A stretch of DNA of 55,412 bases from Alienimonas chondri (GTDB lineage: Bacteria; Planctomycetota; Planctomycetia; Planctomycetales; Planctomycetaceae): assembly GCF_013036045.1 (NCBI RefSeq), contig NZ_WTPX01000014.1:1-55412 (forward strand), read 5' to 3'. Positions 12,027-39,106 of this stretch are shown here, piece after piece; the first letter of the stretch is position 1; every line of letters starts with the position of its first letter. The notes under the pieces were generated by a model. That model searched no databases. It had not been told where the DNA came from and was given only the letters and a program-made list of their open reading frames with translations. Both the position numbers and the translations under genes were made by a program.

Positions 12027-12929
12027 TCAGTCTCCGATCGCCGTGCACGGCGTTTTACGGTCGATTCGCTTCAGCAGCCCGGTCAGCACCCGGCCGGTGC
12101 CGACCTCGTAGAATCGATCGACCCCGGCCGCCATCATCGTCCGAATCGAGTCTTCCCACCGCACCGGCGAGAGCACCTGTCGAACCAGTAGCGCGCGAAT
12201 CTCAGCGGGGTCGGTGTGCGGGGCGGCGTCCACGTTGGAAACGACCGGGACCTTCGGCGAGGACATCTCCACGCCCTCCAGCGCCGCAGCCAACTGCTCG
12301 TCGGCCGGCTTCATCAGCGAGGTGTGGAACGCCCCCGCGACCGCCAACGGAATCGGGCGACCGCCGGCCGCCTCGATCGCCGCGGTCGCCCGCTCGACGG
12401 CGGCCGTCTCGCCGGACAGCACCGTGTTGCCGGGGCACAGAAAGTTCGCCAGTTCGAGTACGTCGTCGCCCGCCGCTTCGTCGCGCACGCCCTGCACCGC
12501 GTCGCGGCCCAGCAGCAGGGCGGACACCATCCCCGAGGGCGTCGCCTCCGCAGCGGCCTGCATCGCCCGTCCGCGAGCCTGCACGACTCTCAATCCGTCC
12601 TCAAAACTGAACGCCTCCGCGAAGGCCAACGCGGTGTACTCGCCGAGACTCAAACCCGCCGCGAAGGCGACGTCGCCCAGCGCCTCCGGGTGCTCGGCTT
12701 TGAGCTTCTCCAGCGCCGCGTACCCTGAGACATACAGCGCCGGCTGCGATACGTCGGTTGCATTCAGCTTCTCCGCCGGGCCGTTCTCGCACAACGCGGC
12801 GAGATCGTAGCCGAGCACTTCGGCGGCACGGTCGTACAGCTCTTGCGCGGCGGGATAAGCCTCCCGCAAAGCGACGCCCATCCCGACGGTCTGGGCGCCC
12901 TGCCCGGGAAACAGCAACGCGGTCGTCAT
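12027..12929 (-). CDS. fabD: Malonyl-CoA:ACP transacylase (FabD)
   Basis: FabD moves malonyl from CoA to ACP. The 300-residue length is normal for the family. The N-terminal LLFPGQGAQ motif, the nucleophile S94 in GLSLGEY, the arginine R120 in RGRAMQ and the histidine H202 in [10 protein letters not shown] are all present. The residue before the nucleophile is Leu, where E. coli FabD has His (GHSLGE). The start codon overlaps the plsX stop by one base (TGATG), so translation of the two is probably coupled. Next downstream is acpP, its substrate. Confidence 0.95.
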
Positions 12930-14122
12930 CAGGGATTCGTCGGGGTCGCGGGGGCGGGCTGCAGGACGGCCAGCGCCTCGGCCATGCGTTCGTTGAGGTG
13001 GGCGTGCTGAAACAGTTCGACAGCCGCGAGGGCGTTTTGAATCGCCGTCGCGTCGCTGGACCCATGAGAAATGATGCAGGTGCCGTCGATCCCCAACAGG
13101 GGCGCCCCGCCCACCTTGCTGTAGCGGAACCGATTGCCGAGCGATTCGAAGCTCGATTTCGCCGAAGCGATCGCGGCCGGGGCGGCGTCGCCCAGGGAGG
13201 CGGCATTGGCGTGCAGATCGCCCATCACCTGCCCGGCGGCGGCGGTCATGAGGAACTCGGCGATCCCCTCGGAAACCTTGAGCGTGACGTTCCCCACGAA
13301 CCCCTCGCAGACCAGCACGTCGGCCTCGCCCCGATACAGCCCCCGCCCCTCGACGTTGCCGACGTAGTTCGCCGCGGTCGCCGGACTGGACCTCAGCAGG
13401 TCGTGCGTTTCGCGGTAGAGATCATTCCCCTTCCCGTCTTCCGACCCGATATTCATCAACCCGATGCGAGGATTCTCGACGCCCAACACCTCCTTGGCCA
13501 GCACGGCCCCCATCACCCCGTACTGCACGAGGTGATCCGGCTTGGCGAGCGGGTTGGCGCCGACGTCCACCAGAATCGACCGCCCCTTGAGGGTCGGCAG
13601 CGTGACCGCGATCCCCGGGCGCCGGACGCCCTTCAGGAACAACCGCGTCCGCAACCCGGCGGCCACCACCGCCCCGGTGTTGCCGGCGGAGACCACGGCA
13701 TCGACGCGACGCTCGGCCATCAGCGTCCAACAGACGGTAATGGAGCAGCGCGGCTTGGCCCGCAGAGCAGCCGTGGGCTTCTCCTCCATCCCGACCACGC
13801 CGTGCGACACCTCAAACGAGAGGCGCCCGCCGTAGTCGTCGCCCCCCTCGACCGCGGGCCGTACGACCGATTCGTCGCCGACCAGCACGACGTGCAGATC
13901 AGGATCCTCAGCCAAGGCCAGACGCGCGCCGTCGATATTCGGGCCGGGCGCGTCGTCGCCGCCCATCGCATCGAGCGCAACCCGAGTCACGCCGGGAGGC
14001 GGCGGACCCGGCGCTGTCGCAGGGTCGTGCAAAGCCGGGCCGGCGGCGGAAGGAGAATCGGTCACACTGACCTTCAACTGCGAGACAAGACGCCCGGGAG
14101 GGACGAACGACGGACGGGGCAA
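12929..14122 (-). CDS. plsX: Phosphate acyltransferase PlsX
   Basis: PlsX converts acyl-ACP and phosphate to acyl-phosphate, which PlsY uses to start phospholipid synthesis. The core begins VALDAMGGDDAPG, and the motifs VSAGNTGA, VDVGAN, GLMNIGSEDGKGN and CEGFVGNV are all typical. The full frame has a TTG start at 14122 and 397 residues, about 45 more than the core needs. An internal GTG some 57 bases downstream, closely preceded by GAAGG, is an equally good start, so the N-terminus is uncertain. It follows rpmF by 37 bases and overlaps fabD by one base. The rpmF-plsX-fab order is a classic bacterial arrangement. Confidence 0.94.
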   Translation of the reverse strand: MPRPSFVPPGRLVSQLKVSVTDSPSAAGPALHDPATAPGPPPPGVTRVALDAMGGDDAPGPNIDGARLALAEDPDLHVVLVGDESVVRPAVEGGDDYGGRLSFEVSHGVVGMEEKPTAALRAKPRCSITVCWTLMAERRVDAVVSAGNTGAVVAAGLRTRLFLKGVRRPGIAVTLPTLKGRSILVDVGANPLAKPDHLVQYGVMGAVLAKEVLGVENPRIGLMNIGSEDGKGNDLYRETHDLLRSSPATAANYVGNVEGRGLYRGEADVLVCEGFVGNVTLKVSEGIAEFLMTAAAGQVMGDLHANAASLGDAAPAAIASAKSSFESLGNRFRYSKVGGAPLLGIDGTCIISHGSSDATAIQNALAAVELFQHAHLNERMAEALAVLQPAPATPTNP

Positions 14123-31179: not shown

Positions 31180-32370
31180 TCAGTACGTCCCGATGCCTTC
31201 GATCTCGTCGATCAGCAGGACTTGGCGGCCGTTGGCGTAGGCGGAGGGGTCGGCACGGAACTTGGCCCGGGTCTCCGCGGACTGGAAGAGGAACAGGTCG
31301 TCCCGCCAGATCGCGGCGTGCTTCGTGCTGCCCGGGACGGCCCGGCCTTCGTCGCGGTAGAGCACGGGATCGCAGCCTAGCAGCTTCGGGGCGTAGCGGT
31401 CGGCGTTCATGTAGAACTTGTCGAACGCGGCGTCGTCGGCCAGAAAATACGTGATGCCCTGGTGTTCCCACTGGAAGTCGCGGGCGCCGCGGACCCACTG
31501 CCGTTGATCGTGCAGCGTCACCGGGCAGAAGCCCCGCATGCCGAGCAGCTTGCGGGAGGGACGACGAGCGACGCGCGGCGAGCCGACGACCGGCCGACGC
31601 ATCTCCCGTTCGTTCGACGGCTGGCCGGAGGACGCGGGGGGATCGGCGGCGAGCGGGTCGGTCGTCGGTTTCGGGCCGAACGGGTCCGGGTAGTCGCCGA
31701 AGGTGTCGCCCCGCGGCGCCGCGGAGCCGCCTGCGTTGGACGGACCGTCGCTGGCGGAATCGCCGAACGCTCCGCCGAAGGCCGCATCAGGTACCGCCGG
31801 GCTGAGGCTCGGGTCGGACTGCTTCGGTTCGGGCGCCGCCAGACCCGGGAAGGACGGATCTTCGAAGGGGGTGCGTTTGGCGATCGACTTCGGCGAGTCC
31901 ACCGCCAGTCGGGCGCCGAGGTCCGGCTGCGGGAGGGAGCGCAGCGAGACGTACTGCCCCGCGACCGCCCGCACCCGACGGGCGTAATCGTCCGGCTGTT
32001 TGAGGCCGCTCATCTGACCAAGCACCCGACCGTCCGGCGTCAGGAGCACGTCGGCGGGGATACCGCGGACGCCGTACTTCTGGGCGGCCGCCTTGTTGCG
32101 ATCGAAGTCGAGATGCACGCCGACGGCGTCGGTCCGCAGCACGTCCGTGACGGTCCGCGAGTGCAAGATCGGCTTCATCTGCTGGCACGGTCCGCACCAG
32201 TCGGCGCTGAAGTGCACGAGTAGGGGCCGATCCGCCCGCTGCGCCGCTGCGAATCCGGCGTCCAGGTTGCCGAGCCACTCCCCCGCCCCGGCGGTCGGTC
32301 CCTGGGCGCACGCGACTGCGGCGCAAACGGCCAGGGCCGTCAGAAATGAGTGAGGGGAACCACTGCGCAC
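31180..32370 (-). CDS. Secreted thioredoxin-fold protein with two YHS-like repeats
   Basis: GTG start at 32370 with GGAG about seven bases upstream; 396 residues. A signal peptide (FLTALAVCAAVACAQG) leads to a thioredoxin domain with active site WCGPC at 58-62 and the cis-Pro in GVRGIPADVLL. A long Pro/Ser/Asp/Gly-rich linker (about 170-270) follows. The C-terminus has two tandem YHS-like modules: GFCPVTLHDQRQW...YFLADDAAFDKFYMNADRYA, and GCDPVLYRDEGRAVPG...LFLFQSAETRAKFRADPSAYA. YHS modules are metal-linked domains often found with copper-handling or redox proteins. The joining of disulfide chemistry and YHS repeats suggests periplasmic metal or redox maintenance; this is inference. Confidence 0.75.
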   Translation of the reverse strand: MRSGSPHSFLTALAVCAAVACAQGPTAGAGEWLGNLDAGFAAAQRADRPLLVHFSADWCGPCQQMKPILHSRTVTDVLRTDAVGVHLDFDRNKAAAQKYGVRGIPADVLLTPDGRVLGQMSGLKQPDDYARRVRAVAGQYVSLRSLPQPDLGARLAVDSPKSIAKRTPFEDPSFPGLAAPEPKQSDPSLSPAVPDAAFGGAFGDSASDGPSNAGGSAAPRGDTFGDYPDPFGPKPTTDPLAADPPASSGQPSNEREMRRPVVGSPRVARRPSRKLLGMRGFCPVTLHDQRQWVRGARDFQWEHQGITYFLADDAAFDKFYMNADRYAPKLLGCDPVLYRDEGRAVPGSTKHAAIWRDDLFLFQSAETRAKFRADPSAYANGRQVLLIDEIEGIGTY

Positions 32371-32429: not shown

Positions 32430-33011
32430 TCAGTCAAACCCGGCGAGGCCGTTCAAAAAGTTGGCCAGCAGGGCGTCGCCGTGCGGGGTCAGCACGCTCT
32501 CGGGGTGAAACTGCACCCCTCGTACCGGCCGGGTGCGGTGGGCGAAGGCCATGATCGTTCCGTCGTCCAGCGAGGCGGTCACGGCTAGTTCGTCCGGCAG
32601 CGTGGCGGGATCTGCGACGAGGGAGTGATACCGGCCGCAGGGCATCGGATTCGGCAAGCCGGCGAACAGGTCCACGCCGTCGTGCCGGACCGCCGCGGCG
32701 ACGCCGTGCGCCGGTTCGCCGCGCACGATTCGCCCTCCCAACGCCGCGGCGATCGCCTGATGCCCCAGGCACACGCCGAGCAGCGGCACCTCCCAGTCCG
32801 TGCAGGCGGCGCGGGCCAGCGTCAGGCAGACGCCCGCCTCCGCCGGAGAGCACGGGCCGGGCGAGAGAATCACCGCCTCCGGTTTCATCGCCCGCGCTTC
32901 GGCGAGCGTGACGGCGTCGTTTCGCCGGACGGTCGCCGGTCGCCCCAACTCCGCGCACGACCGGGCGAGGTTGTGGGCGAAGGAGTCGTAATTGTCGACC
33001 AGAAGGATCAC
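32430..33011 (-). CDS. pabA: Aminodeoxychorismate synthase glutamine amidotransferase subunit (PabA/TrpG family)
   Basis: The class-I glutaminase releases ammonia from glutamine for chorismate amination. The 193-residue product starts ILLVDNYDSFAHNL at a GTG (33011). The frame continues upstream but encodes no family residues. C81 sits in GVCLGHQA; the His-Glu pair is in VQFHPESVLTPHG. The oxyanion motif SPGPCSP is present. PabA and TrpG cannot be told apart from this subunit alone, but the partner 22 bases upstream is PabB by its PIKGT motif, so PabA fits. It precedes the thioredoxin-YHS gene. Confidence 0.93.
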   Translation of the reverse strand: MILLVDNYDSFAHNLARSCAELGRPATVRRNDAVTLAEARAMKPEAVILSPGPCSPAEAGVCLTLARAACTDWEVPLLGVCLGHQAIAAALGGRIVRGEPAHGVAAAVRHDGVDLFAGLPNPMPCGRYHSLVADPATLPDELAVTASLDDGTIMAFAHRTRPVRGVQFHPESVLTPHGDALLANFLNGLAGFD

Positions 33012-33033
33012 AGCGGGATGGTAGCCGCTCCGG

Positions 33034-34509
33034 TCAGGAGAGCGGTTCGCTCGAGGCGTCAAACGCTCGCAGGGTCGCGGCGGCCTTGTGGAGGGTCTCC
33101 TCATACTCCGCCGCCGGATCGCTGCGGGCGGTGATGCCGCCGCCGACCGGGACGACGCAGCGCCCCGTCGCCCGATGCCGGGTGACCGTGCGGATCAGCA
33201 CGTTCGCGTCCAGCGAGCCGTCCCGCCCCGCCCAGAACAAACTGCCGCAATAGGGGCCGCGGGCGGCGGGTTCGAGGTCGTGGATGATCTCCATCGCCCG
33301 GACCTTCGGCGCCCCGGTGATCGACCCGCACGGGAACGCCGCGGCGAGCAGACTCCACCGATCCTCGTCCGGCCGCAGCGTGCCGCGGACTTCGCTGACG
33401 AGATGGGCGACGGTTTCGTAGCGTTCCAGTTCGCAGAGCGCCGGCGCCCGCACGCTGCCCGGGGCGCACACCCGCGACAGGTCGTTGCGGAGCAGATCGA
33501 CGATCATCACGTTCTCCGCCCGATCCTTGCCGGACTGCCGCAGTTCGTCGCCCACCCAAAGATCGAGCGTGGGCGACGCCTTCCTCCGCCGCGTCCCCTT
33601 GATCGGCCGGGCTTCGACCTCCGCCGCCCCCGTCTCCGGATTCACGGCGACCGACAGAAACCGTTCCGGTGAGGCACTGACGACATCGAAGCCGCCGTCG
33701 CCCCCTTCCCCGCCGTCGTCCCCTTCCCCGCCGCCGCCGAGCGGAAACAGACCGGCGAACGGGGCTGGATTCGCTTGGCGAACGCGCTCGTACAGATCGA
33801 CCGCGGACCCGTCGAAGGTCGTCAGCAGCGGCTGGGAGAGGTTCGCCTGAAAGATGTCTCCCGCACAGATCAGCTCGACCGTCTCCGCGACCGCGGCTTC
33901 GTACTCCGCCCGGGTGAAGGGACTCCGCACGCCGGGGGCGATCTCCGGTCCCACCGACGCCGGCCACGGGGATGACCGCCGGGCCTCCGGCGCCGGCTGG
34001 GGCGGGCGGGCCAATCGGGCAAGCGCCCCGTCGAGCCGCTGTTGTGCCCGCGTCGCTGATGGAGCTTCGTTCCGCGTTATCCCCGTGGAAATCGCCCAGG
34101 CCCGGCCGATGTCGTGATCCCACGCGATCAGCCAGTCCGCCAGCAAGACGCTGGCCACAGGCGGGATGCCGATTTCACGCCAGACCTCTCCCGCCTCCGG
34201 CGCCGGGAGACGTTCGAAGTGCCCGCCGAACTCGTATCCCAGCAGCCCCACCGCCCCGCCCTGAAACGGAGGCAGTCCTGCGATCGCTGGCGCTTTGTTT
34301 CGATCCAGCAGGGAGCGCAGCGGAGCAAACGGTTCGTCCCCCGTCCCCAGCGGGAGGTCCGTCGCATCCGCGGTGAGAAATGAATACCGCCCCAGTCGAC
34401 CGGGCCGGGAGACGCTCTCCAAAAGCACCGGCGCGGCGTCCGCGACCTGCCGCAGCGCGGTCGGGACCGTCGGCGGAGGCGTCAATTCCTGAACGAGCGG
34501 GGCCTTCAT
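33034..34509 (-). CDS. pabB: Aminodeoxychorismate synthase component I (PabB)
   Basis: PabB aminates chorismate to aminodeoxychorismate, the precursor of p-aminobenzoate. The 491-residue product has the chorismate-binding domain with EARPIKGTRRR; the Lys in PIKGT is the covalent residue of PabB, whereas TrpE has PIAGT. Other marks are FQANLSQP, RAENVMIVDLLRNDLSRV, FPCGSITGAPKVRAMEII and CGSLFWAG. A Gly/Asp-rich low-complexity insertion (GGGGEGDDGGEGGDGG) lies in the middle. The start codon overlaps the stop of the DHPS-related gene by four bases (ATGA), so they are translationally coupled. Confidence 0.93.
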   Translation of the reverse strand: MKAPLVQELTPPPTVPTALRQVADAAPVLLESVSRPGRLGRYSFLTADATDLPLGTGDEPFAPLRSLLDRNKAPAIAGLPPFQGGAVGLLGYEFGGHFERLPAPEAGEVWREIGIPPVASVLLADWLIAWDHDIGRAWAISTGITRNEAPSATRAQQRLDGALARLARPPQPAPEARRSSPWPASVGPEIAPGVRSPFTRAEYEAAVAETVELICAGDIFQANLSQPLLTTFDGSAVDLYERVRQANPAPFAGLFPLGGGGEGDDGGEGGDGGFDVVSASPERFLSVAVNPETGAAEVEARPIKGTRRRKASPTLDLWVGDELRQSGKDRAENVMIVDLLRNDLSRVCAPGSVRAPALCELERYETVAHLVSEVRGTLRPDEDRWSLLAAAFPCGSITGAPKVRAMEIIHDLEPAARGPYCGSLFWAGRDGSLDANVLIRTVTRHRATGRCVVPVGGGITARSDPAAEYEETLHKAAATLRAFDASSEPLS

Positions 34510-35939
34510 CCGTCCGCCTCCGTCGATCGCGCCGCCGCTCGAGGGGCGACGGCGCTGGCCTCGTCTTCCGTCAGCATGCCCCACTGCAGGGCTTCGTCCT
34601 GCACATATACTTTACCCAGCGTGAGGGCCGTCGAGGCTTTGGCCAACTCGTACCCGAGATAGAAGGCATGCGAAGCCGATAGCGGACGCCCAGCATCTGC
34701 CGCGGCCTTCTCTGCCGCGTCGAACACTCGAAACGGATCCCGTCCGGTATGAAGGCCGTCTCGGTTGAAGAGGTGAATCGAGCGACCGTCGATCAGCACG
34801 CGGAAGTTCGCATCCGTCACCGACTCGGCCAGTTCGGCGATCTCCGTCGAGGTCGCCCGCCGCGGCCGGGGATCGCGGAGCATGACCAGTGCATCGGACA
34901 GATGCTTCGGAACCGTGCCGCGGTCCGCGGCACACTTCATCAAGCGGCGGGCGGCGTCGAGTTCCCGCACGCTGCTTTGCGCCCACGGGATCACCTGGGT
35001 GGTCAGCACGCTGAAGATCCTTCGTTCTTGGCAGAACCCCGCCAACAACGTATTTACCCCCGCCGAATCGACGCCGGTCAACTCCGTCAGGTTCCCCACG
35101 CCCATCAGCATCGCCGCGTCGGGGAGCCGGCGACGCACTTCGGAATACCGATCGAGCGACGCCGCGAACCCGAAGTGGATCGGTTCGAGGATCGGATCGA
35201 GCCGATGGGCGACGCCGGCCTCGCCGAGGGCCTCGGCGGTGCGGAACAGACTGTCCAGGTCCGACGGCTCATCGGGGATCACGACGAATTCCACGCCGGT
35301 CTCGCGGCCCAGCGGATCGGCCCAATCGAGATTCGTCCCGTTGCAAGACAAGACCAGTTCGGCCCCGGCATCGACGGACGCCGTCACCTCGCCGCGGTCG
35401 AAGCTGTCGACGCTCACCCGATGCCCTTCGCCCCGCAGCAAGCGGACGAGGTTCGGCACGCGGGCCGTGGGCGCGCCGGGGGTGGCGCCGACGTCGATCA
35501 GGTCCGCCCCGTCCGCCCGCATCGCCGCGGCGGTCGCGACGACCTCGGCGTCCGTCAGGCGGGCGGCGTGGTTGATCTCCGCGACGATCTCGATGTCCCA
35601 CCGCGAAAGGTCCGGCGGTTCACGATCGCCCTCTCCGAAGAACAGCGGCAGATCGTGCAGATCCTTCGGCCCGCGGACGAACGGGAGGCTGAATCGCTCC
35701 GACAGCGCCGCGACGTCCAGGTCGCCCAGCCCCGGCAGCACGATCCGGTCGAAGGATTCGCCGCTGGCTTCGATGTGCGGGCCGAGTCGATTCAGCAGGA
35801 GAGGCGTGTGCATCAGCGCAGCGACCTGCACGCCGGGGACGGCGACTTCCCATTTAAAATCGTGTCGCCGGCCCAGCGGGGCGAGCGTTCGCCGCAGAGC
35901 CGGTTCCGCCAGCTTGCCGGTCACGAACAGGAGGCGCAT
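34506..35939 (-). CDS. Dihydropteroate-synthase-related protein (archaeal type, DUF6513)
   Basis: The 477-residue product starts at ATG 35939 (MRLLFVTGKLAEPALR). The first 100 or so residues are the DUF6513-type domain; then comes a TIM-barrel of the dihydropteroate synthase fold: VAEINHAARLTDAEVV, GADLIDVGATPGAP, VSVDSFDRGEV, VLSCNG and LDPILEPIHFGF. The order is that of the family TIGR00284, known from methanogens and tetrahydromethanopterin-using bacteria, including planctomycetes. It joins a p-aminobenzoate-derived unit to a pterin; here the donor could be beta-ribofuranosyl-aminobenzene phosphate or pABA. It overlaps pabB by four bases. Its substrate is inferred. Confidence 0.85.
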   Translation of the reverse strand: MRLLFVTGKLAEPALRRTLAPLGRRHDFKWEVAVPGVQVAALMHTPLLLNRLGPHIEASGESFDRIVLPGLGDLDVAALSERFSLPFVRGPKDLHDLPLFFGEGDREPPDLSRWDIEIVAEINHAARLTDAEVVATAAAMRADGADLIDVGATPGAPTARVPNLVRLLRGEGHRVSVDSFDRGEVTASVDAGAELVLSCNGTNLDWADPLGRETGVEFVVIPDEPSDLDSLFRTAEALGEAGVAHRLDPILEPIHFGFAASLDRYSEVRRRLPDAAMLMGVGNLTELTGVDSAGVNTLLAGFCQERRIFSVLTTQVIPWAQSSVRELDAARRLMKCAADRGTVPKHLSDALVMLRDPRPRRATSTEIAELAESVTDANFRVLIDGRSIHLFNRDGLHTGRDPFRVFDAAEKAAADAGRPLSASHAFYLGYELAKASTALTLGKVYVQDEALQWGMLTEDEASAVAPRAAARSTEADG

Positions 35940-35965
35940 CCCCGCCCAGCCCGTGGGAGGGTCGC

Positions 35966-36742
35966 TCACCGCACCGCCCCGCCGTTGACGTTCACGATTT
36001 GGCCGGTCACGAAGGAGGCCTCGTCGCTGCACAACCAGCGGGCGCAGCGGGCGATGTCCTCCGGCGTCCCCCAACGCTTGAGCGGCGTCTCCCGCAGCAC
36101 GCGAGCCTGCCACTCGTCCGGGGCGGTCTCTCCCCACGCCGTGAGGATCCAGCCGGGGGCGACGCAGTTCACCCGGACCTCCGGCGCCAGCGACAGCGCC
36201 AGCGAACGGGTGAAGGCCATCACGCCGGCCTTGGCGATGGCAAACAGCTCGCCGCTGTCGCCGTCCATCCCGGTCGCCGCCTGATCCCAGCCGATGTTCA
36301 GGATCGCCCCCGAACCGCGCTGCCGCATCGCGGCCCCGACGGTTCGCGACAACAGGGCCGTGGCGGTCACGTCGACCGCCAGCAGGGCCGCGAGCTTCTC
36401 CTCATATCCCAACGTCCGCCCGGCGCCGGTCAGCAGATCGACGCCGGCGTTGTTCACCCAGACGTCGGGCGTCCCGATCGCGGCGCCGGCCTCGTCCCAC
36501 AGACGATCGCATTCGCGGGCGTCTCTCAAGTCGCCGACGAACCGCCCGACGGCGCCGAGTTCTCGACAGAGCGCGTCCAGCTGATTCGCGGACGACCGAC
36601 AGGTCAGAAAGAGATTCGCCCCGGCCGCTTTCAGCTCAGCGGCGATCGCGGCACCGATGCCGCTGCTCGCCCCCGTCACCACCGCCGTACGGCCGCGCAG
36701 AGACGCAAATTCGGCGGGCATCTTCGGGGAGTGATCTGACAT
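35966..36742 (-). CDS. Short-chain dehydrogenase/reductase fold with altered catalytic residues
   Basis: A 258-residue SDR with the cofactor motif VVTGASSGIGAAIA (residues 21-34), VNNAG at 96-100 and a C-terminal VTGQIVNVNGG. The catalytic residues differ. Where the family has YxxxK it reads FAIAK, so the tyrosine is Phe167 while Lys171 remains; and the serine strand is ILNIGW in place of IVNISS. A normal proton-relay reductase is therefore unlikely. It starts the pterin gene block, 26 bases before the DHPS-related gene, so it may serve a pterin step or act as a cofactor-binding partner. Confidence 0.85.
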   Translation of the reverse strand: MSDHSPKMPAEFASLRGRTAVVTGASSGIGAAIAAELKAAGANLFLTCRSSANQLDALCRELGAVGRFVGDLRDARECDRLWDEAGAAIGTPDVWVNNAGVDLLTGAGRTLGYEEKLAALLAVDVTATALLSRTVGAAMRQRGSGAILNIGWDQAATGMDGDSGELFAIAKAGVMAFTRSLALSLAPEVRVNCVAPGWILTAWGETAPDEWQARVLRETPLKRWGTPEDIARCARWLCSDEASFVTGQIVNVNGGAVR

Positions 36743-37288
36743 TCACGTCATGTTAGCAAACGGCGTCGCGGAGACGCTTATGATGGCACCGGCGCCCATC
36801 CCACAGGCACGCAACGCCACATTGCGATGTGACGCAGAATCTCAATCGAGAATATCCGGAATCCTCAATGGCTCATGCTGTCGCTGCGTCCCGCCCAGTA
36901 CGAACCCCTGCAAACCACTCCGCTGAATGAGAAGACCTGCGGAAATTTGCCGCCGCATCAACATTTACCGTTGACTCAATCTCTTAGCTCGAGAACACTC
37001 CCCACAGGAACACGTTTCAACGGCTTTCCCCGGCCCCCCTCAACGCCCGCTTAGAGGCGAGGGGCGAAGGGGATTTCAACGTTGCGGGTCTTCCTTTTAG
37101 AGTCCTATCTCAGAGTTCGCCTTGGATCGAAGTTTGTTCGCCTCATCGGCACGCCGCTTGCGGTAGCTCCGATCCGACCGCCGGCCCTCATCGACTTCCG
37201 GCACGCTATCGGCCGATCGTCGCTCGATCGGCCGCCTTCCATGTTAACCCCGCCGGTCTGCCGACCGGCTCACACCATCGACCATCTC
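36743..37288. other. Divergent intergenic region upstream of the ArsR-type gene
   Basis: About 545 bases, AT-richer than the genome, between the SDR gene (-) and the ArsR-type gene (+). It holds a perfect inverted repeat (listed separately) and short AT-rich patches such as GAATAT near 36848 and TTGACT at 36971, but no convincing promoter pair. The regulator's frame is open from 37082, so part of this could be coding. Confidence 0.4.
37211..37233. promoter_or_regulatory. Perfect inverted repeat, possible operator of the ArsR-type gene
   Basis: GGCCGATCG and CGATCGGCC flank a TCGCT spacer. It lies 56 bases upstream of my chosen start (37289) and 8 bases upstream of an alternative ATG at 37241. 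ArsR-family dimers bind such repeats in their own promoters. It could equally be an RNA hairpin. Confidence 0.4.
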
Positions 37289-37828
37289 ATGCTCGCCACC
37301 GCTGTCGCCCACACGGTCGCTTCGCCTCGCTCGGCCCCGTCCGCTTCGTCCGTCAACAACTCGGTCAACGTGACCGGACGCGCCGGACTCGCCGCTAAGT
37401 CTGACGACGTGTTGGACGACGATTTCGGCGCCGGACTCGCCGAAGCGCTGGACGCGGACGCGGATAGCGAACACGACGGACGCTTTCCGGTCCTGCCGGA
37501 CGCCCTCGAGCAGGATCTCGTCCAGGTCTTCAAGCTGCTGTCGGACGAGACGCGGTTGCGGATTCTGCTGTACCTGGCTCGCGAAGGCGAACTTCACGTG
37601 ACGGCCCTGTGCAAGCGGCTCTCCCAGAGCCAGCCGGCGGTCTCCCACCACCTGGCGCTGCTGCGGAACGCCGGCATCATCGAGCCCCGCCGTGACGGCA
37701 AGCACAACTTCTACAGCATCCGTCAGCAGCGGTTCGTGGGACTGATCGCCGAGTTCTTCGCCTCCGTCCGCGATCCGGAAACCGACGCGGTCGAGTTCGA
37801 CGAGTTCGTGTTGAGCAAGACGGAGTAA
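37289..37828 (+). CDS. ArsR-family winged-helix transcriptional regulator
   Basis: A 179-residue protein from ATG 37289. Earlier starts at 37241 and 37082 are possible. About 80 acidic, low-complexity residues precede the DNA-binding domain. The domain reads LVQVFKLLSDETRLRILLYLA, then LCKRLSQSQPAVSHHLALLRNAGII with the recognition helix in SQPAVSHHL, and the wing DGKHNFYSI. The CxC metal site of classic ArsR (ELCVCDL) is missing (ELHVTAL here), so the signal is unlikely to be arsenic-type metal binding at that site. It lies alone between two promoter-like gaps and has a strong terminator after it. Confidence 0.88.
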   Translation: MLATAVAHTVASPRSAPSASSVNNSVNVTGRAGLAAKSDDVLDDDFGAGLAEALDADADSEHDGRFPVLPDALEQDLVQVFKLLSDETRLRILLYLAREGELHVTALCKRLSQSQPAVSHHLALLRNAGIIEPRRDGKHNFYSIRQQRFVGLIAEFFASVRDPETDAVEFDEFVLSKTE

Positions 37829-37855
37829 CCTTTCTCCCGCAAACTGTGTTGATCA

Positions 37856-37884
37856 CGCCCCGGACGCTCCGAGCGTCCGGGGCG
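37856..37884 (+). terminator. Rho-independent terminator after the ArsR-type gene
   Basis: CGCCCCGGACGCT pairs with AGCGTCCGGGGCG across a CCG loop: a perfect 13-bp GC stem, followed by CTTTGCGTT. It begins 28 bases after the stop codon and separates the regulator from carA. Confidence 0.8.
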
Positions 37885-37951
37885 CTTTGCGTTAGGATGC
37901 GGGCGTACCCCGTCGCCACCGCTCCGGGGGCTCCCGCCCCCCGCTCGCCTG

Positions 37952-39106
37952 ATGCCTCATTCTTCGCCCAAGCCCGCCAAGCTCGCCCTCGCCGACGGCA
38001 CCGTCTTTACCGGAGAGCACTTCGGAGCGATCGGCGAAGCCTTCGGCGAAGCGGTCTTCAACACGTCGCTGACGGGTTATCAGGAGATCCTCACGGACCC
38101 CTCCTACGCCGGTCAGATCGTGACGATGACCTACCCCGAGATCGGAAACTACGGGGTGAACGCCGACGACGTCGAATCGAAGGGCATCGCGGCACGGGGG
38201 TTCGTCGTCCGCGAACTCTGCCGCCGGCCGAGCAACTTCCGCAGTGAGAAGGGGCTGAACGAATACCTCGCGGAAGCCGGCGTGGTGGGGATCAGCGGGG
38301 TCGATACGCGGGCGTTGGTGCGCAAGCTCCGCAGCGCCGGGGCGATGACCGCGGTGATCTCTTCGGAGACGCTCGACGACGACGCCCTTGTGGAAAAGGC
38401 CTGCAACAGCCCTGAACTCGTCGGTCAGGACCTCATCAGAACGGTGATGCCGGAGTCGGCCGCCAGCTGGGACGAACCGCTGCACAAGTTCGCCGCCCCC
38501 AGCGCCGCCCCCCCTTCCCCCAACGACGGCACGCCCGGTCGGACACCGCATGTGGTCGCGATCGACTACGGCATGAAGTGGAACATCCCGAGGCATCTGT
38601 CCGCGATGGGATGCAAGGTGACCGTGCTGCCCGGAACCGCGACCGCCGCGGAGGTGCAGGCGCTCAAGCCGGACGGCGTGTTCCTCTCCAACGGCCCCGG
38701 CGACCCGCGGCCGCTGGACTATGCGGTCGGCACGATCCGCGAGTTGCTGAACGACGACGTGCCGATCTTCGGCATCTGCCTCGGTCAGCAGCTGTTGGGT
38801 CTCGCCTGCGGCGGGGAGATCGAAAAGCTGAAGTTCGGCCACCGCGGCGCCAACCAGCCCGTGCTGGAGAAGGCGACCGGCCGCGTGGAGATCACCAGCC
38901 AGAACCACGGCTTCGCCCTCAAAGAAGCGACGCTGCCGGCCGACGTGGAGGTCACGCACGTCAACCTGAACGACGACACCGTCAGCGGCATCCGCCACAA
39001 GACGCGGCCGGCGTTCGCCGTGCAGTACCACCCGGAAGCCAGCGCCGGCCCGCACGACAGCGGCCACCTGTTCGCCCGCTTCCGCGAGATGATGTCCAAG
39101 GCGTGA
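37952..39106 (+). CDS. carA: Carbamoyl-phosphate synthase small (glutaminase) subunit
   Basis: CarA supplies ammonia from glutamine to CarB for carbamoyl phosphate, feeding pyrimidines and arginine. The 384-residue product has the N-terminal domain (LADGTVFTGEHFGA, VFNTSLTGYQEILTDPSYAGQIVTM abridged) and the class-I glutaminase domain: nucleophile in FGICLGQQLLG, and the His-Glu pair in VQYHPEASAGPHD. The residue after LG is Gln where CarA of E. coli has His (GICLGHQ). A Pro/Ser linker (AAPSAAPPSPNDG) joins the domains. No carB is in this window; ndk follows 119 bases later. Confidence 0.95.
   Translation: MPHSSPKPAKLALADGTVFTGEHFGAIGEAFGEAVFNTSLTGYQEILTDPSYAGQIVTMTYPEIGNYGVNADDVESKGIAARGFVVRELCRRPSNFRSEKGLNEYLAEAGVVGISGVDTRALVRKLRSAGAMTAVISSETLDDDALVEKACNSPELVGQDLIRTVMPESAASWDEPLHKFAAPSAAPPSPNDGTPGRTPHVVAIDYGMKWNIPRHLSAMGCKVTVLPGTATAAEVQALKPDGVFLSNGPGDPRPLDYAVGTIRELLNDDVPIFGICLGQQLLGLACGGEIEKLKFGHRGANQPVLEKATGRVEITSQNHGFALKEATLPADVEVTHVNLNDDTVSGIRHKTRPAFAVQYHPEASAGPHDSGHLFARFREMMSKA

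Follow-up and report, generated by a model that had tools for sequence, protein, structure and literature searches.

Our analysis of a 55,412-nucleotide stretch of the Alienimonas chondri genome (contig NZ_WTPX01000014.1 of assembly GCF_013036045.1, hereafter the window) suggests that four of its genes are probably a piece of the gene set for the biosynthesis of tetrahydromethanopterin (H4MPT), a one-carbon cofactor familiar above all from methanogenic archaea. The genes encode a short-chain dehydrogenase/reductase (SDR), a protein resembling dihydropteroate synthase (DHPS) that we call DHPSL, and PabB and PabA. DHPSL follows the H4MPT pathway in Planctomycetota, and would probably join 6-hydroxymethyl-dihydropterin pyrophosphate to beta-ribofuranosylaminobenzene 5'-phosphate (RFA-P), with the SDR as a candidate reductase of the same pathway. 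A first-pass annotation of this DNA had guessed at a methanopterin role for the block, and our results support it in part: the block is H4MPT-related, PabA and PabB are shared with folate, and para-aminobenzoate (pABA) enters via RFA-P.

The strongest evidence is co-occurrence. Among 195 Planctomycetota genomes spread evenly over the phylum, that of A. chondri included, full-length DHPSL, Mch and RFAP synthase are found in the identical set of 33 genomes, which fall in seven families. Fae is present in all 33 and in none of the 22 pathway-negative genomes tested, in line with the earlier claim that the DHPS-related protein goes with methanopterin-type one-carbon metabolism. Canonical FolP was found in 56 of 56 genomes tested, namely the 33 and 23 of the 162 without a strong full-length DHPSL, so DHPSL is dispensable for folate. 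These counts depend on thresholds. Because the TIGR00284 model weakly matches E. coli and B. subtilis, only long, strong matches (E under 1e-30) were counted as full-length DHPSL, which retained 33 of 71 genomes with a match; the other 38 include G114 (see below), G100 and G077, which match by DUF4346 only, and weak partial hits taken as FolP and the like. RFAP synthase matched in 36 genomes, of which G013, G077 and G173 were dropped (20-26 bits). Some observations weigh against a strict association: beyond this lack of specificity of TIGR00284, only 18 genomes with an RFAP synthase match exceed the cut-off of that model, and G231 (76% complete) has Mch, Fae and RFAP synthase, but no DHPSL was found in it.

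The block lies on the minus strand of the window, its four open reading frames side by side, intact and free of inner stops:

36742-35966, minus strand: SDR, ATG start, 258 residues; Pfam adh_short_C2; distinct subfamily (GWDQ...GELF...K); candidate dihydromethanopterin reductase.
35939-34506, minus strand: DHPSL, ATG start, 477 residues; DUF6513, DHPS-like TIM barrel and DUF4346-like C-terminus; proposed pterin/RFA-P condensing enzyme.
34509-33034, minus strand: pabB, aminodeoxychorismate synthase component I, ATG start, 491 residues; RPIKGT motif; PF00425.
33011-32430, minus strand: pabA, glutamine amidotransferase subunit, GTG start, 193 residues; PF00117 (GATase); TIGR00566 over its cut-off.

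In the pathway that we propose, PabA and PabB would provide, with a PabC, pABA for folate and H4MPT alike. RFAP synthase would combine pABA with phosphoribosyl pyrophosphate into RFA-P, which DHPSL would condense with 6-hydroxymethyl-dihydropterin pyrophosphate on a DHPS-like barrel that keeps three FolP-aligned aspartates and has lost the FolP loop motifs. The SDR would carry out a reduction, most likely that of dihydromethanopterin (H2MPT) to H4MPT. The A. chondri assembly (5.3 Mb, 97% complete) holds other genes that the first-pass annotation had proposed to look for: mch on contig C1, fae on C2, a canonical folP separate from the block on C88 (TIGR01496, 330 bits), and RFAP synthase on C2. 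The latter scores weakly by hidden Markov model (43.9 bits against a cut-off of 113.5), yet lies directly behind a DUF447 gene, an arrangement that recurs in relatives.

Gene neighbourhoods fit the same pathway. Among the 33 genomes with full-length DHPSL, PabB lies directly downstream in 24 and the SDR upstream in 17, so the block is more than chance; PabA is nearby in 16 and pterin carbinolamine dehydratase (PCD, PF01329) in 13. The order SDR-DHPSL-PabB-PabA-DUF447-RFAP synthase is contiguous in four genomes of family f2, and four others show Mch-Orf5-Orf7-PTPS-SDR-(PCD)-DHPSL-PabB, with PCD in three of the four; Orf5 and Orf7 are so named after plasmid-region annotation and the gene order in an excerpt of PMC3615186. 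Within the fetched stretches, DHPSL is near RFAP synthase/DUF447 in 4 of the 33 genomes and near Mch in 5 others, four of which have the second order. RFAP synthase is also near DHPSL in 15 of 80 further contigs, the best 80 of 577 found. Some contigs are present twice in the neighbourhood and SDR sets (e.g. L096/L182 and L119/L259), and one PabA query (L109) contained 3 stop codons, replaced by X.

In proteobacteria, a DHPSL-like sequence is carried by 38 plasmid records, in 35 over most of its length. The 8 such regions that we fetched have DUF447 adjacent or near (8), RFAP synthase (7), Mch (6), Fae (5) and, upstream of DHPSL, a DmrB-type flavoprotein (7); one has pabB behind fae. The H4MPT/methylofuran islands of methylotrophic proteobacteria comprise mch-orf5-orf7-fae, orf19-orf20-afpA-orf21-orf22, and pabB, which the excerpt of PMC3615186 giving the island order describes as a frequent companion of methylotroph H4MPT synthesis. 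Planctomycetes share with these islands DHPSL (DUF6513), DUF447, RFAP synthase, Mch, Orf5 and Orf7. They differ in having the SDR where the islands have the flavoprotein, in that pabB (and pabA) immediately follows DHPSL in most of them, in having PTPS before the SDR in 4 of the 33 genomes and, in A. chondri, in the dispersal of the set over contigs C46, C1 and C2. The planctomycete gene set is a variant of the known H4MPT islands. Separately, a planctomycete-type DHPSL at 52-53% identity is carried by L250, L186, L189 and L208, which are titled Bacteroidales or Candidatus Kuenenia and are probably mislabelled or misbinned.

The SDR, to which the first-pass annotation gave no role, is the least expected member of the block. 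Classical SDRs use a Ser-Tyr-Lys catalytic set, and the window protein has Asp-Phe-Lys instead. This change is general: among 53 SDRs near DHPSL, 52 have Phe for the catalytic Tyr, 52 have the Asp (in GWD) and all have the Lys. A DNA pattern of this signature is found in 29 of the 195 genomes, all within the 33 with H4MPT and none of the 162 others (a reversed control gave no match), and since it occurs in several genomes away from DHPSL, the co-occurrence is more than linkage. The known H2MPT reductases listed in an excerpt of PMC6193120 are DmrA, DmrX and AfpA/DmrB. Planctomycete homologues in the tree of that excerpt group with DfrA and none with DmrA, and an excerpt of PMC5020050 reports that Afp was not recognised in planctomycetes. 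A search with a DmrB-type query gave no hit in any of 41 planctomycetes, while retrieving its source record as positive control; no search aimed at DmrA was made. The SDR, which occupies the place of DmrB in the cluster, is a candidate for the dihydromethanopterin reductase that planctomycetes appear to lack. It would perform the same reaction as DmrA, DmrB/AfpA and DmrX with an SDR fold.

Several facts speak against this assignment. No match to the signature came from 4 of the 33 H4MPT genomes, though an exact pattern may miss variants. The altered SDR persists in G209 and G213, two genomes in which none of Mch, Fae and RFAP synthase was found. By sequence, the protein is FabG/glucose-dehydrogenase-like. 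Of its 150 PDB matches, none of the 60 listed is named pteridine reductase, and the NCBIfam model for that enzyme ranks fifth, under its cut-off. SDRs are promiscuous, and the protein could catalyse another reduction, such as the opening of the RFA-P ribofuranosyl ring to the ribitol chain, for which we know of no reductase, or be an unrelated passenger. Its persistence in G209 would suit such roles, which we consider a real but unlikely possibility given the place it shares with the flavoprotein, the failure to find DmrB, and a signature confined to H4MPT genomes even where unlinked.

DHPSL itself is only loosely described by existing families. The first-pass label TIGR00284/DUF6513 holds for DUF6513 (PF20123; 52.4 bits, gathering cut-off 23.9), but TIGR00284 (dihydropteroate synthase-like protein) reaches 170.4 bits, under its cut-off of 256.65, with a match split into two segments (about 2-98 and 152-496 of 497). 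This counts against the proposed role, and makes DHPSL a divergent bacterial relative rather than a TIGR00284 member by the curated rule. None of the 195 planctomycete genomes passes that cut-off, the 33 DHPSLs scoring 120-170 bits, whereas three control genomes, presumably archaea, exceed it. Pterin_bind (PF00809) is matched partially over its cut-off (28.1 bits against 25.5), in agreement with the DHPS fold match. The FolP model TIGR01496 gives 22.5 of the required 162.6 bits. The AlphaFold model (pLDDT 85) falls into three parts, with an alpha/beta domain at the N-terminus, a TIM barrel in the middle and a small domain at the C-terminus:

35604-35939, minus strand: N-terminal domain, DUF6513, residues 1-112, alpha/beta; AlphaFold model of the domain pLDDT 86.5.
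34911-35603, minus strand: TIM barrel, residues 113-343; D149, D178 and D248 aligned with FolP aspartates.
34509-34910, minus strand: C-terminal region, residues 344-477, DUF4346-like end; PterinBD-DUF4346 (PF14251) 27.9 bits, under the cut-off of 29.6.

All 50 Foldseek matches listed for the model are DHPS-family chains, except one methionine synthase; a single-sequence search of the PDB (E up to 1) gave no match. In profile comparisons, DHPSL matches FolP at E 2e-9 and the pterin domain of MetH at E 0.014, and its D149, D178 and D248 align with D65, D105 and D195 of the A. chondri FolP. The TIM barrel and these aspartates are common to both proteins. DHPSL differs from FolP by its extra N- and C-terminal domains, by occurring together with H4MPT genes and not universally, and by lacking the N.TPDS and ESTRP motifs, which are present in 18 of 18 FolPs and 0 of 33 DHPSLs. 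The FolP SRK and R.H residues lack conservation at the matching places of DHPSL, strings SRK or R.HD occurring by chance somewhere in 6 of the 33. The invariance of N.TPDS in our FolP alignment is partly built in, because its 15 of 18 proteins were picked by N[VIL]TPDSF, while the three left out read NATPDSF or NCTPDSF at this place; the MetH alignment holds 12 of 13 proteins, L314 being left out. An enzyme that takes RFA-P in place of pABA would need such a combination of a kept pterin side and an altered acceptor side. The residues are not wholly favourable to this reading: the GxGNLT motif of DHPSL aligns with GVSNVS of MetH, and N123, considered as the equivalent of the FolP Asn, was rejected, as Val stands there in 8 of 8 proteobacterial DHPSLs.

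Co-occurrence and linkage fix the pathway of DHPSL, not its step. Databases name a metallo-beta-lactamase-fold protein of the MJ0301 type for the pterin/RFA-P condensation, and DHPSL could act at a neighbouring step of H4MPT synthesis. We find this improbable, since it is at the condensation that the pathway calls for DHPS-type chemistry, and the predicted barrel and aligned aspartates are DHPS-like. Slightly less probable still is that DHPSL is a protein of the pterin/corrinoid methyltransferase type, using H4MPT instead of making it. VIA ties DHPS and the methyltransferase MeTr on residues 113-343 (Z 22.0 and 22.2, MeTr first), which also tells against a condensing enzyme; the GxGN alignment with MetH and the company that DUF4346 keeps elsewhere (see below) likewise favour a methyltransferase-type protein. 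The N-terminal domain points the same way, its best match being a corrinoid protein, at a Z little above the level reached by unrelated models. Profiles, however, match FolP far better than MetH, and DHPSL is linked with pabB, RFAP synthase and DUF447. The family also seems to track synthesis over use, because the control Sulfolobus acidocaldarius matches TIGR00284 and RFAP synthase and has no match to Mch (nor to Pterin_bind).

We made two observations on the outer domains. The best VIA match of the DUF6513 model (residues 1-112, window 35604-35939) is the C-terminal domain of a corrinoid iron-sulfur protein (Z 9.5, 98 residues, 2.7 A); Foldseek with this domain found no match at E under 0.001. 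Two planctomycetes carry DUF4346 fused to thymidylate synthase and another carries it fused to MtrA, which suggests a domain of general accessory use with pterin cofactors:

L127, 3695-5185, minus strand: DUF4346 fusion to thymidylate synthase, with an MtrA-like N-part.
L305, 1584-3047, minus strand: DUF4346 fusion.
L306, 1653-2831, minus strand: DUF4346 fusion.

A natural series of eroded DHPSLs fits the proposed dependence on the pathway. G114 (99% complete, single contig) has DHPSL-PabB, and Mch, RFAP synthase and Fae were searched for and not found; its family, f3, with 61 genomes sampled, mostly lacks the H4MPT pathway. Of the 69 residues that never vary among the 33 intact proteins, the DHPSL of G114 has lost 29, and 25 of these lie in the barrel. 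The copies of G114, G218, G209 and G213 (the last genome 89% complete) keep only 14-19 of 39 barrel invariants, and no Mch, Fae or RFAP synthase was found in these four genomes. G252 and G233 have intact DHPSLs (37 of 39) with Mch and Fae, and G217 (79% complete) is intermediate (27 of 39), with Mch found and Fae and RFAP synthase not found. When only residues also invariant in the 8 proteobacterial DHPSLs are counted, 11-13 of 25 remain in the barrels of the four eroded copies and 21-22 of 24 in their flanks, and between G114 and G218 nonsynonymous divergence (dN) is below synonymous divergence (dS) in every domain, with dS near saturation. The flanking domains seem to have a separate job of their own. 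A prediction set beforehand was borne out for Mch, which is present in G217, G233 and G252 and was not found in G114, G218 and G209; it missed G231, which has Mch and no DHPSL found. RFAP synthase, also predicted for G233 and G217, was found only in G231 and G252; the contig of G233 ends soon after DUF447, and G217 is, as noted, incomplete. Several independent erosions were considered and rejected: in the tree, the four eroded copies and the partly eroded G217 form one clade with long branches, so a single origin is possible.

That DHPSL is a second folate dihydropteroate synthase in a folate operon is highly improbable: its neighbours pabB and pabA are needed for folate, and G114, G218 and G209 keep it next to pabB where the H4MPT genes were not found, but its barrel is eroded in these genomes, the FolP motifs are missing from all 33 proteins, and FolP is present in every genome tested, including the 23 without strong DHPSL.

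The earlier suggestion that PabA and PabB serve methanopterin rather than folate did not hold. We found two chorismate-binding enzymes in A. chondri, the window PabB (RPIKGT) and a TrpE-type enzyme (RPLAGT) on C299; the Lys or Ala of this motif presumably distinguishes PabB from TrpE. The window protein has the Lys and scores 268.6 bits with PF00425 (Chorismate_bind). It stays under the curated NCBIfam cut-offs (TIGR01824, PabB-clade2, the best, 310.5 of 408.55; TIGR00553, 293.5 of 328.4), the trpE_most model being close behind at 304.4 bits. As it is the only PabB-type enzyme found in a 97% complete genome, PabAB must feed folate too. Exactly two chorismate-binding enzymes are present in 32 of the 33 H4MPT genomes, the exception being G106 with its fragments at contig edges, and an RPIKGT enzyme of the PabB type is seen in 32. 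Co-occurrence, universal FolP and these counts place DHPSL with H4MPT and require PabAB to serve both cofactors, and suggest that one PabAB pair supplies two one-carbon cofactors. The notion that pABA is joined to the pterin is imprecise: the joining would not be direct, since RFAP synthase first converts pABA into RFA-P, as an excerpt of PMC6787355 describes. In G066, a chorismate-binding enzyme in pieces with stop codons (C1:1677904-1678660) is perhaps a pseudogene.

Methanopterin biosynthesis had, according to an excerpt of PMC3087415 (2011), three proteins named and about seven unknown, and planctomycetes figure, in the excerpt of PMC5020050, in the debate on whether the H4MPT pathway is ancestral. 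With strict co-occurrence and the eroded series, both the gap at the condensing enzyme and that at the reductase now have a named gene that can be tested. We tentatively join the two proposals: the SDR with Phe for Tyr may be the dihydromethanopterin reductase that planctomycetes seem to lack, one more unrelated way of carrying out this reaction, and DHPSL the H4MPT counterpart of dihydropteroate synthase, turned pseudoenzyme in a lineage without other H4MPT genes, where its outer domains might keep a separate job, perhaps at PabB. A literature search on TIGR00284, DUF4346 and DUF6513 found no paper and, as far as our searches show, with many journals outside their coverage, the strict co-occurrence, the SDR candidate and the eroded DHPSLs are new.

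Finally, the layout of the block agrees with its first description as four adjacent genes on one strand: 26 bases separate SDR and DHPSL and 22 separate pabB and pabA, and DHPSL and pabB overlap by 4 (ATGA). DHPSL may alternatively start at a GTG that would overlap the SDR stop. A sigma-70-like promoter was looked for and none was found. All four frames have a third-position GC of 82-87%. In L319, the dihydroneopterin aldolase annotation of the gene at 12816-13451 may be wrong, as its matches in L328 and L330 carry an aspartate kinase-type annotation. The gene 59 bases behind pabA (window 31180-32370), which adjoins pabA in many relatives, encodes a thioredoxin-domain protein whose C-terminus matches YHS weakly. 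Upstream and divergent from the block, an ArsR-type regulator and carA (window 37082-39106) stay together with SDR-DHPSL as a conserved unit across many relatives.

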